NCBI GenBank assembly: GCA_041874755.1
Contig: CP102611.1
Coordinates: forward strand, 434,001 to 498,000
Direction: 5' to 3'
Length of the DNA stretch: 64,000 bases
Origin: Chitinibacter sp. SCUT-21
GTDB taxonomy: Bacteria > Pseudomonadota > Gammaproteobacteria > Burkholderiales > Chitinibacteraceae
In this document: piece after piece, positions 42,197 through 45,616 of the stretch
Layout: each line of letters starts with the position of its first letter
Position numbering within the stretch: position 1 is the stretch's first letter
The notes under the pieces: model-generated
The model's input: only the letters and a program-made list of their open reading frames with translations
The model's database searches: none
What the model was told of the DNA's origin: nothing
Position numbers and translations under genes: made by a program

Positions 42197-42228
42197 TCAC
42201 GATTCACTCTTGATTATGCCGCGCATAA

Positions 42229-42256
42229 AAAAACGCCACCCTAAGGTGGCGTTTTT
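42229..42256. terminator. Two-way terminator between the fnr operon and nagE
   Basis: AAAAACGCCACC (42229-42240) pairs with GGTGGCGTTTTT (42245-42256) around CTAA. A and T runs on both sides let it serve both convergent operons. Confidence 0.9.
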
Positions 42257-42273
42257 AATTTATCGACTCATCA

Positions 42274-42786
42274 TTATTTTTTGCGAATCGTATAGAGTGG
42301 CGTTTGACCTGCAATCACCGAACCACTCGCCACGTTAGCCACCGGTGCAAAATCATCTGCATTGGTTAACACAACAGGACTAATGACCGATTTGGCATTG
42401 GCACCAAGGAATTCCAGATCTAATTCCAATACAGGCTGGCCAGCTTTAACAAAGCTACCCTGCTCTGCCAGACGCGTAAAACCTTGACCTGCCAGCTTTA
42501 CTGTCTCGATACCAATATGCACAATCAACTCAACACCAGCGTCATTCACGAGGGCAAAAGCATGGTTGGTGTTAAAAATCTTAACCAACTGCCCATCGCA
42601 TGGCGCTACCACTAATTTGCCAGTTGGCAAAATCGCTACACCATCCCCAACCGCTTTAGTCGCAAATGCCGCATCAGGCACATCTTCCAAAGCAACCACT
42701 TCGCCCGTCACAGGAGAAAGCAGTACTGTTTCGCCGGGATTCGAGGCTGGAACCACCGCAGCAGGCTGCGGTGCAGCCTCAGTTAC
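42274..42786 (-). CDS. nagE: PTS EIIA(Glc/Nag) domain, read in the -1 frame of nagE
   Basis: This frame encodes an EIIA of the glucose family: LLSPVTGEVVALEDVPDAAF, GDGVAILPT, the phospho-accepting His in VELIVHIGIETVKL, and FVKAGQPVLELDL. The only start candidate is a GTG at 42756, which has no Shine-Dalgarno and sits inside a hairpin. Read back to 42786 the frame continues as VTEAAPQPAAVV, an Ala/Pro linker of the type joining IIB to IIA in fused EIICBA proteins, and meets the EIICB frame exactly at its slippery end. I therefore treat it as the C-terminal 170 residues of a frameshift product rather than a free gene. A free protein cannot be excluded. Confidence 0.8.
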   Translation of the reverse strand, partial: VTEAAPQPAAVVPASNPGETVLLSPVTGEVVALEDVPDAAFATKAVGDGVAILPTGKLVVAPCDGQLVKIFNTNHAFALVNDAGVELIVHIGIETVKLAGQGFTRLAEQGSFVKAGQPVLELDLEFLGANAKSVISPVVLTNADDFAPVANVASGSVIAGQTPLYTIRKK

Positions 42787-42792
42787 TTTTTT
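42743..42792 (-). promoter_or_regulatory. nagE: Probable programmed -1 frameshift site in nagE
   Basis: On the reverse strand the EIICB frame reads GCA AAA AAG TAA. A_AAA_AAG (42792-42786) is the classical bacterial -1 slippery heptamer. Five bases later a stem begins: GAGGCTG (42780-42774) with CAGCCTC (42749-42743), and inside it CACCGCAG (42773-42766) with CTGCGGTG (42761-42754), loop CCTG and a four-base bulge GTTC. A -1 slip bypasses the TAA and enters the EIIA frame at GTA (42786). Confidence 0.8.
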
Positions 42793-44273
42793 GCAGCAAC
42801 ACCAAGATTGGCACGCAACTGGTCTGCAATCAACTCAGCTTTTGGTCCAACAATGATTTGCACGCTTTGCTTGTTCAGTTTGATAACACCGCTTGCGCCA
42901 AGGCGTTTTGCAGCCGCTTCGTCAACCAAATCAGCATCATTTACAGACAAACGCAGACGGGTAATGCATGCATCAACGTTTGTAATATTGCTCGCACCAC
43001 CAACTACAGCAACGTAAGCCGCGCCCAATTGTGCAACATCACCAGATGCAGTCGATACCGCAGGAGCCGCAGCAGCTTCGCCAGCAACTTCATCTTCACG
43101 ACCTGGTGTTTTCAGGTTCAAGGCAGTGATTGCTGCGCGGAATACAAAGTAGTAGATCGCGAAGAATACCAAGCCTTGTACGATCAGCATGTACCATTTA
43201 ACTGCCAATGGGTTTTGCGACGACAAGAACATGTCGATGAAACCGCCAGAGAAGGCGAAACCTGAGATCCATTGCATTTGCGCAGCGAGGAACACAGAAA
43301 CACCAGTCAAGAATGCGTGCACCACATACAGCAACGGCGCAACAAACATAAATGAGAATTCCAATGGCTCAGTTACACCAGTTACAAAAGAAGTAACCGC
43401 AGCAGCACCCATGATTGAAGCAACAGCAGCTTTGTTAGCTGGCTTAGCAGTGTGGTAGATCGCCAAAGCAGCGCCTGGCAGACCAAACATCATCACAGGG
43501 AAGAAACCAGCTTGGTACATACCAGTCACACCAGCAACAGCCTTGCCTTCAGCCAGTGATTTAGCACCGCCCAAGAAGTTAGGGATGTCGTTAATACCTG
43601 CAACGTCAAACCAGAATACTGAGTTCAAAGCGTGGTGCAAACCAACAGGAATCAGCAAACGGTTGAAGAAGGCGTAGATACCTGCACCGACAGAACCCAA
43701 GTCTTTAATACCCAGACCAAAGTTTACCAATGCATTGTAAATAACTGGCCAAACCGCCATCAGAATGAACGATACAACAATCATCACAACCGAAGTCACA
43801 ATCGGCACGCAACGACGACCACTAAAGAACGCCAGTGCTTTGTGCAATTCAACTTGACTGAATTTGTTGTAAACCTCACCCGCAATCACACCGGCTAAGA
43901 TACCAACAAAGGCATTTTCGATTTTGCCGAAGGCTTTAGGCACATCTTCAGGCTTGATACCTTCAATTTGCGCAACTGCACCTGGAGACAACAGTGTTGT
44001 CACCACCAAATAGCCAACCAAACCAGCCAAAGCAGCGGCGCCATCTTTATCTTTTGACATACCGTACGCAACACCAACTGCAAACAAAATTGGCATTTTG
44101 TCGATAATTGCTGCACCCGCTTTGATCAAGAACGCAGCCAACTGGCTATTTGCCCCCCAACCCGTTGGGTCAGCCCAGTAGCCGATACCCAACATGATTG
44201 CTGCAGCAGGAAGAACTGCTACAGGCACCATCAGCGAGCGGCCGATTTTTTGTAAATACCCTAGAATATTCAT
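42783..44273 (-). CDS. nagE: N-acetylglucosamine PTS transporter, EIICB
   Basis: 496 residues from the ATG at 44273, preceded by AGGTG; a start eight codons upstream has no RBS. The IIC channel (about 1-370) has ten or so membrane segments with YWADPTGWG, a GLHHALNSVFWFDVAG motif and the conserved GVTEPLEF. The IIB domain (about 415-490) holds the phospho-cysteine in VDACITRLRL. It imports and phosphorylates N-acetylglucosamine, the monomer of chitin, using phosphate from EI and HPr encoded elsewhere. The stop follows a slippery heptamer; shifting to the -1 frame would add the EIIA domain and give 666 residues, close to the 648 of E. coli NagE. Confidence 0.93.
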   Translation of the reverse strand: MNILGYLQKIGRSLMVPVAVLPAAAIMLGIGYWADPTGWGANSQLAAFLIKAGAAIIDKMPILFAVGVAYGMSKDKDGAAALAGLVGYLVVTTLLSPGAVAQIEGIKPEDVPKAFGKIENAFVGILAGVIAGEVYNKFSQVELHKALAFFSGRRCVPIVTSVVMIVVSFILMAVWPVIYNALVNFGLGIKDLGSVGAGIYAFFNRLLIPVGLHHALNSVFWFDVAGINDIPNFLGGAKSLAEGKAVAGVTGMYQAGFFPVMMFGLPGAALAIYHTAKPANKAAVASIMGAAAVTSFVTGVTEPLEFSFMFVAPLLYVVHAFLTGVSVFLAAQMQWISGFAFSGGFIDMFLSSQNPLAVKWYMLIVQGLVFFAIYYFVFRAAITALNLKTPGREDEVAGEAAAAPAVSTASGDVAQLGAAYVAVVGGASNITNVDACITRLRLSVNDADLVDEAAAKRLGASGVIKLNKQSVQIIVGPKAELIADQLRANLGVAAKK

Positions 44274-44404
44274 CTTGTTCACCTTTAAATGACTCAATGA
44301 TTTTTATAAACCAACCAAAGCTGGCATTGTTATTACGACTCCAACCTGTCAACCTCTCAAGCAAAGCTTAAGAAAATAGAACTGGTATGGCGATTATTAA
44401 CTGT

Positions 44405-44424
44405 CATTGCAATATTAGGCAATG
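44405..44424. promoter_or_regulatory. Candidate operator upstream of nagE
   Basis: CATTGC (44405-44410) and GCAATG (44419-44424) form an inverted repeat spaced by eight AT-rich bases, about 130 bases upstream of the nagE start. Spacing of one helical turn and a half suits a dimeric regulator. No known Nag regulator consensus could be matched with confidence. Confidence 0.35.
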
Positions 44425-44674
44425 TTTAAGTAACAACATGTGCGAGTCAGAAAACACAATAGCAATATGCCATTTAGCTTTTGCCACACACATTCAAACT
44501 TAATACAGTTAGGTTCTCAGAGCTGTGTTGCAATCATGTTGAGATCGCTCAATATTTACAATCCACCCGCCACGTTCTTAATACTTCGCAACATTTCTTT
44601 ACATTCACACCCCAGCAAAAGAACAGAAAATTTGCCAGCCGCATATTTTCGTTAAAAAGTCTCGAACGACGCTG

Positions 44675-44703
44675 TTTCACCTAAACAAGGCTTCGGTTAG
44701 AAT
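44675..44703 (+). promoter_or_regulatory. Likely sigma-70 promoter of dapA
   Basis: TTTCAC (44675-44680) and TAGAAT (44698-44703) are separated by 17 bases. The predicted start site near 44710 leaves a leader of about 25 bases before the dapA ATG. Confidence 0.55.
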
Positions 44704-44734
44704 AGTTTCTTTTCTGCCATTGGTTCCACTACTT

Positions 44735-45616
44735 ATGCTCACAGGTAGCCTTGTCGCGCTCGTCACCCCCATGGATGTGAACGGCGAAATTGATTTCCCA
44801 ACGTTAAGAAAACTAGTTGATTGGCATATTGAGCAAGGCACGAACGGCATTGTCGCCGTTGGCACCACGGGCGAATCGCCAACAGTGGATGTTGAGGAGC
44901 ATATCGCCATTGTTCGCGCCGTTGTCGAACAGGCAGCGGGCCGAGTGCCGGTAATTGCGGGCACAGGCGCGAATTCAACCCGAGAAGCAATCCACTTATC
45001 AAACCGGGCATTAGAGGTTGGCGCCAATTATGGTTTAAGCGTAGTGCCGTATTACAACAAACCAACACAAAACGGCTTGTACCAACACTTTAAATCTATC
45101 GCAGAAAACACCGCTCTCCCCACCCTACTCTACAACGTTCCGGGCCGCACGGCATGCGACCTAAGCAACGACACCGCGCTCGAACTGGCCAAACTTCCCA
45201 ATATCGTCGGCATTAAAGATGCAACTGGCAATTTGGAGCGTGCAGCCGATTTAGCCAAGCGCGCACCGAGCGATTTTGCACTCTACAGTGGCGACGATGC
45301 ATCAACCCTGCCATTTATTTTAATTGGCGGGCACGGCACGATTTCCGTTACCGCCAATGTTGCACCACAAGCGATGAGCCAAATGTGTGCCGCAGCAGCG
45401 GCTGGACAAATCAGCACAGCTCGCGCGATTAACGACAAATTGCAAGACCTACACCGCCACCTGTTTATCGAAGCCAATCCAATTCCAGTAAAATGGGCGC
45501 TAGAAGCAATGGGCAAAATTCCAGCAGGTATTCGCCTTCCACTCACGCGCCTAAGCGAGCCAGCACAAGCTATTGTGCGCAAAGCTTTGCAAGCAGCCGA
45601 TCTGATCAACCCGTAA
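44735..45616 (+). CDS. dapA: 4-hydroxy-tetrahydrodipicolinate synthase
   Basis: 293 residues from the ATG at 44735 ([13 protein letters not shown], the standard DapA opening); a TTG five codons upstream is unlikely. The family motif [14 protein letters not shown] and the catalytic [11 protein letters not shown] (Tyr and Arg of the active site) followed by the Schiff-base lysine in [11 protein letters not shown] are intact. It condenses pyruvate with aspartate semialdehyde for lysine and diaminopimelate synthesis in the cytosol. It is followed after 24 bases by bamC, an arrangement seen in many proteobacteria. Confidence 0.98.

Follow-up and report, generated by a model that had tools for sequence, protein, structure and literature searches.

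In Escherichia coli dnaX, a chromosomal and non-mobile gene, the slippery heptamer A_AAA_AAG and a 3' hairpin accompany two products with a common N-terminus, the shifted one being the shorter (PMC5009743, PMC3711429). The locus described here, which encodes a sugar transporter of a phosphotransferase system (PTS), has the same heptamer, a hairpin on its 3' side, a non-mobile chromosomal setting, and two predicted products with a common N-terminus. Its shifted product, however, would be the longer one, its 0-frame stop codon stands directly after the heptamer, and the Shine-Dalgarno-like stimulator that lies upstream of the E. coli heptamer has no conserved counterpart. A longer product made by the shift and a 0-frame stop at the shift site are both found in the reversed dnaX genes of a few bacteria, e.g. 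Chlorobium phaeobacteroides (PMC5009743), but these are DNA polymerase genes, for which PMC3711429 argues that transcriptional slippage may be at work. The carboxysome gene csoS2 is likewise a non-mobile metabolic gene with a 3' stem-loop and apparently no upstream Shine-Dalgarno element, although in this case the shift, at 50%, leads to the shorter product and the protein is unrelated (PMC5009743). Transposases of the IS1 and IS3 families share a heptamer of the A_AAA_AAG type, often a 3' structure, and a longer fused protein (PMC4066793), yet they belong to mobile elements, whereas the frames considered here are those of a sugar transporter and match only PTS families in Pfam. Finally, N-acetylglucosamine (GlcNAc) transporters of the in-frame EIICBA kind (NF007608 type) and of the EIICB-only kind possess the same domains in the same order, and the EIICB part of our locus passes the GlcNAc-specific model TIGR01998; those proteins, however, carry EIIA as an in-frame fusion or not at all, whereas here it can be joined only by a -1 shift.

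Few conserved cases of recoding are known in non-mobile chromosomal genes (Atkins review, PMC5009743). No phosphotransferase or PTS gene appears in the literature on bacterial frameshifting within the scope covered (the main texts of PMC3711429 and PMC4066793 and part of that of PMC5009743), which agrees with the original prediction for this DNA, whose author knew of no PTS working in this way. The locus looks like a known kind of signal in an apparently new kind of gene. It would add to the recoded genes a sugar transporter that gains an entire phosphotransfer domain through the shift, with domain stoichiometry fixed by recoding. It would also mean that gene prediction based on frames alone yields, in the genera concerned, a transporter that looks truncated and an EIIA that looks orphaned.

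The junction between EIICB and EIIA

The gene lies on the minus strand of the window, i.e. the whole stretch of 64,000 nucleotides that was analyzed, and comprises the following features, given in window coordinates.

44280..44286, minus strand: Shine-Dalgarno-like AAAGGTG, six bases before the EIICB start ATG (44273), read by eye
42783..44273, minus strand: EIICB frame, 496 codons and TAA, N-acetylglucosamine-specific PTS IIBC (PF02378, PF00367, TIGR01998)
42786..42792, minus strand: slippery heptamer A_AAA_AAG, unchanged in all 15 genomes in which EIIA has a separate frame
42783..42785, minus strand: 0-frame stop TAA abutting the heptamer (TAA or TAG in 15 of 15)
42742..42781, minus strand: downstream hairpin predicted by RNAfold, with a 4-nt loop, a 4-nt bulge, and a spacer of 4-5 nt; an outer U.G is counted among its 16 pairs
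42754..42756, minus strand: GTG, the sole ATG/GTG/TTG from the heptamer to the EIIA domain, inside the hairpin and without a Shine-Dalgarno sequence
42274..42786, minus strand: -1 frame starting at GTA, 170 codons and stop, encoding an Ala/Pro-rich linker followed by EIIA (PF00358, 152 bits)
42227..42256, no strand assigned: terminator-like bidirectional hairpin CGCCACC-CTAA-GGTGGCG with A and T runs on its flanks, located between the EIICB/EIIA gene and a convergent plus-strand frame, seen by eye and not reported by the terminator scan

The EIICB frame ends in GCA AAA AAG TAA, and the phase of the heptamer in this frame is A_AAA_AAG. The transporter had been assigned to GlcNAc from the sequence, and the assignment holds, as EIICB scores 667.6 bits with TIGR01998 (GlcNAc-specific PTS IIBC, an equivalog_domain model) against a cut-off of 553.2 bits. 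The top NCBIfam match of the EIIA frame is to NF007608 (PTS N-acetyl glucosamine transporter IIABC), at model positions 500-648 and with a score far under the cut-off; scored singly, the two frames reach 437.3 and 209.6 bits, both below the 1010 bits set for this full EIICBA of the NagE type. Joined by the shift, they would form a transframe product of 666 residues (496 of EIICB and 170 codons from the GTA at 42786 to the stop at 42274), and the product sizes of 496 and 666 residues initially proposed are correct as reading-frame lengths.

Folding of 81 nt with RNAfold gave a hairpin of 8 + 8 pairs with an energy of -32.2 kcal/mol (z -2.86), equaled in stability by 2 of 200 shuffles. Since its outermost pair is U.G, it may be read either as 15 bp with a spacer of 5, which is how it had been described along with the loop and the bulge of four bases each, or as 16 bp with a spacer of 4. 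The region singled out by the original prediction takes in heptamer and hairpin to within one base. No Rfam family matched positions 42200-44800 at the gathering threshold. A terminator-like match on the plus strand was rejected, as it was the putative frameshift hairpin read on the opposite strand, and the number of matches in that scan was equal to the shuffled mean.

Split and fused layouts among relatives

We searched 43 genomes of the family for EIIA domains. In 15 of them, counting the window's genome, the EIIA of this gene has a separate frame (179-193 residues): all six genomes of the window's genus (g1), all seven of g11, and both of g10. In another 25 genomes, from other genera of the family, an EIIA is part of a longer frame (660-736 residues), like that of an EIICBA. 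Relatives with such a continuous frame and no conserved heptamer or stem had been named beforehand as evidence against a frameshift; heptamer and a predicted stem are conserved in the three split genera, which together with the in-frame fused EIIA of other genera in the family offer a natural comparison. The EIICB part of some fused relatives (g2, g3, and genome G010) is only 48-52% identical to that of the window, and their genes may not be strict orthologs. The same domain search revealed no such gene in the three genomes of g9. A further EIIA was present in 42 of the 43 genomes, where its frame has 842-923 residues; in the window's genome this frame has 460 residues, and the EIIA is part of an EIIA-HPr-EI protein. 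Two g1 genomes (G005, locus L150; G003, locus L151) possess an extra EIICB paralog that is 62% identical and has no EIIA after it.

As anticipated from the window, where the heptamer precedes the EIICB stop and EIIA lies in the -1 frame, AAAAAAG is followed directly by TAA or TAG in all 15 split genomes, with EIIA in -1. The -1 frame is open from GTA for 170-176 codons, EIIA exceeds the PF00358 cut-off, and both His motifs are present, again in 15 of 15. We inspected 23 fused loci and were able to parse 20 of them (L028, L148, and L032 were left out); in-frame A_AAA_AAG was found in none of these 20 linkers. The linker of one fused relative (G028, locus L025) contains seven A followed by G, read as Ala-Lys-Lys-Val in a single frame. 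Loss of one A from a run like this would give the split layout, though this is only a suggestion, the alignment of the linkers being uncertain. A single origin of the split is neither shown nor rejected by the protein tree (p-AU 0.439), and a larger tree with long branches gives no resolution either. In the larger tree the EIICB of one g11 genome (G015, locus L006) groups with g1, and its linker resembles those of g11; parts of the gene may have been exchanged or recombined between genera.

To look further afield, we inspected the best 80 of 581 named relatives with flanks of up to 3 kb (shorter at contig ends). None of these 80 had a similar junction or an A6-type heptamer before the stop; 70 were without EIIA in the fetched flank, 7 were fused, and 3 had an EIIA 122-1073 nt after the EIICB stop. 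A sample of 300 genomes from the order contained 30 with a match (10 in the family), and no such junction was seen outside the family when coordinates and frame lengths were checked by eye. Two matches at 1e-35 were obtained in a sample of 369 genomes from the class, i.e. the window's own and that of G582, an EIIA without an EIICB frame in the fetched flanks, and here too the junction was not seen outside the family. As far as searched, with order and class covered by samples, the putative signal is limited to three genera of one family.

Signs of selection on the heptamer and the hairpin

The codon before AAA AAG is GCA in 8 genomes, ACA in 3, CCA in 2, TCA in 1, and GGA in 1 (Ala, Thr, Pro, Ser, and Gly). 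The third base before the two Lys codons is A in 15 of 15, against a background of 6-24% A at all third bases and 15-42% in GCN codons of the EIICB frames. The A run comprises exactly six residues in every genome, and A_AAA_AAG occurs in frame exactly once per EIICB frame in all 15. In g10, with a GC3 of 0.65-0.68, AAG is used at 32 of 34 other Lys codons, and AAA AAG is kept at the junction. Among the 80 columns with at least three amino acids in a codon alignment (made automatically; two genomes are shifted by one codon at the very end), the third base is constant in all 15 genomes only in the junction column, while just 1 of 10 invariant Lys columns away from the junction shows the same codon throughout. 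Judged by this alignment, synonymous sites have turned over across the 15 genomes and the heptamer has been kept, with the reservation that these genomes are relatives and their agreement does not represent 15 independent events.

The stability of the hairpin was compared with that of 1000 synonymous recodings, in which the amino acids of the linker were fixed and codons were redrawn from the usage of each gene. Only three recodings were as stable as the hairpin of the window. At most 22 of 1000 matched the native fold in 13 of the 15 split genomes (mean z -3.0 for the split genomes), and the excess was weak in two, G024 (89/1000) and G014 (241/1000). The fused controls (n = 20, 500 recodings each, the most stable of six windows taken) showed no excess, their mean z being -0.06 with 1 of 20 below -2. 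The comparison of junctions in relatives, proposed from the start as a check, has come out with the heptamer kept in 15 and the hairpin excess in 13 of 15 genomes, and it supports the claim of a selected -1 frameshift signal.

Covariation was analyzed for g1 and g11 apart, g10 consisting of two genomes only. In g1, 95.2% of the stem cells pair and two positions change on both sides (4 cells), as compared with 33-49% pairing for slid versions of the stem; of 500 shuffles, 4 or 5 matched the stem in covariation score, in paired cells, or in cells with a change on both sides, and 162 matched it in the number of pairs changed in this way. In g11 (six distinct rows), 99.1% of the cells pair and 11 of 19 pairs vary, slid versions reaching 25-60%, and covariation showed no excess over shuffles (196/500). 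We rejected a single hairpin common to all 15 genomes: the joint alignment folds poorly, because each genus has a hairpin sequence of its own. It is the presence of a predicted stem that is conserved, and its letters differ between genera. Structures that stimulate frameshifting usually begin a few bases past the heptamer. The main helix of g11 starts after 8 nt, or after 2 nt if a four-pair outer helix forms. The distance is greater in g10, where the strongest helix lies 14 and 20 nt past the heptamer in the two genomes, and a 3' structure at a suitable spacing is doubtful in this genus.

The signal had been called dnaX-type, and this description stands as regards heptamer and hairpin but not as regards the upstream Shine-Dalgarno stimulator. 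Pairing with the anti-Shine-Dalgarno sequence was strong upstream of the heptamer only in G014 (dG -12.9), whereas in each of the other 14 genomes 28 to 188 of 265 windows along the gene paired equally well or better.

Access to the EIIA domain and proposed role

The seven codons after the shift have a pN/pS of 0.44 in the -1 frame (105 of 105 genome pairs), as compared with 0.88 for the 0 frame (the 78 of 105 that are free of stops) and 1.75 in the +1 frame (28 of 105), and the hairpin itself could explain part of the low value. In our judgment, the most likely reading, with a probability of roughly 90%, is that -1 programmed frameshifting yields EIICB together with some EIICBA of 666 residues. 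The occurrence of slippage, its rate, and the purpose of the resulting ratio are what we infer from the comparisons above.

The same EIICBA would also result from transcriptional slippage, in which the polymerase adds one A within A6 so that some mRNAs contain a single EIICBA frame. Both mechanisms are reported for dnaX in the GeneTack paper, which argues that even a run of seven A slips at transcription (PMC3711429). However, sites of this type frequently consist of at least eight identical bases (PMC3711429), whereas the run found here never departs from six, and the phase A_AAA_AAG, the trailing G, and the selected coding hairpin correspond to the needs of ribosomes and not to those of a polymerase, which makes this route quite improbable.

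Somewhat less probable still is separate synthesis of EIIA, whether by termination-reinitiation or through an independent start codon. Three g11 genomes (G031, G034, and G061) have TAATG at the junction, where ATG forms the second codon of the -1 frame; a GTG occurs at codons 8-13 of that frame in 10 of 15 genomes; and anti-Shine-Dalgarno pairing of -4.9 to -6.2 precedes one candidate start in 4 of 15. Yet the GTG of the window (42756) has no such pairing (dG +1.1), in keeping with the initial description of an EIIA without a Shine-Dalgarno sequence whose sole start lies in the stem, and no ATG, GTG, or TTG occurs between the preceding stop of the -1 frame and the heptamer in any of the 15 genomes. 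In G036 the only candidate is a GTG one codon before the EIIA domain. G062 has no ATG, GTG, or TTG between heptamer and domain, so separate initiation cannot be general; by codon content, an independent EIIA start shared by all 15 is excluded. Separate synthesis would, moreover, leave the fixed heptamer and the A at the preceding third base unexplained. Reinitiation may nevertheless add to frameshifting in the three TAATG genomes. A sequencing error in the A6 run, which the original prediction had raised as a rival, or a decaying gene is hardly credible, for although A6 is error-prone and the EIIA-HPr-EI gene of the same assembly has a frame break, finding one junction in 15 of 15 genomes from three genera excludes an error, and EIIA is over its Pfam cut-off with the His motifs kept.

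Under programmed frameshifting, most or many ribosomes would terminate at the TAA or TAG after AAA AAG and release EIICB. Some, with Lys-tRNAs on AAA in the P site and AAG in the A site, would be paused by the hairpin, re-pair one base back on AAA AAA, decode GTA, and continue through the linker into EIIA, giving the 666-residue EIICBA. The latter would take phosphate from HPr on its own, whereas EIICB would be phosphorylated in trans, with either EIICBA partners or EIIA-HPr-EI contributing the EIIA. EIICB alone should be functional if EIIA is supplied in trans, because most of the best named relatives (70 of the 80) have no flanking EIIA and the EIICB paralogs of g1 likewise lack one. The frameshift rate would then set the EIIA:EIICB ratio, the dose of EIIA, and the fraction of transporter that can draw on HPr unaided. 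We consider it unlikely, though conceivable, that the rate, which might respond to Lys-tRNA charging or growth rate, or to temperature through the hairpin, acts as a switch between two phosphate routes, with EIICB fed via EIIA-HPr-EI and EIICBA via free HPr, and thereby governs the competition between GlcNAc uptake and other PTS sugars; if it did, a transporter would have its energy coupling fixed during translation elongation.

In E. coli, the readiness of A_AAA_AAG to slip has been tied to the sole Lys-tRNA (PMC5009743), although IS elements may use such motifs even where a CUU-type tRNA is present (PMC4066793). In the fetched Lys-tRNA loci, ARAGORN detected only the UUU species in 10 of 15 genomes (six of g1 and four of g11, one of the latter cut by a contig end) and a Lys-tRNA(CUU) as well in 5 of 15 (both of g10 and three of g11; loci L169-L172 and L175). 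A similarity search with a CUU gene in the six g1 genomes returned nothing closer than UUU genes. The tRNA background would thus favor slippage in g1 and be less favorable in g10 and the three g11 genomes, and the signal may be weaker in g10, given its distant hairpin and Lys-tRNA(CUU). The occurrence of Lys-tRNA(CUU) in some species and not in others provides a natural test of tRNA dependence.

Outside the window, the EIIA-HPr-EI gene of the window's genome is broken into two frames (L144:2184-4776; G000:C1, about 2041200-2043800) by a one-base length difference relative to G001, leaving an open frame of 460 residues as compared with 842-923 in those other members of the family in which the gene was found. 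The break falls in the EI part, past EIIA and HPr, and copies in relatives are intact; it may be either an assembly error or a real break. Beside this gene, a short EIIB-like frame with a membrane-like N-terminus was recognized by eye (L144:4788-5129), along with an EIICB with a second EIIB-like end (L144:5341-7074); they represent a second PTS, and one of unusual layout.
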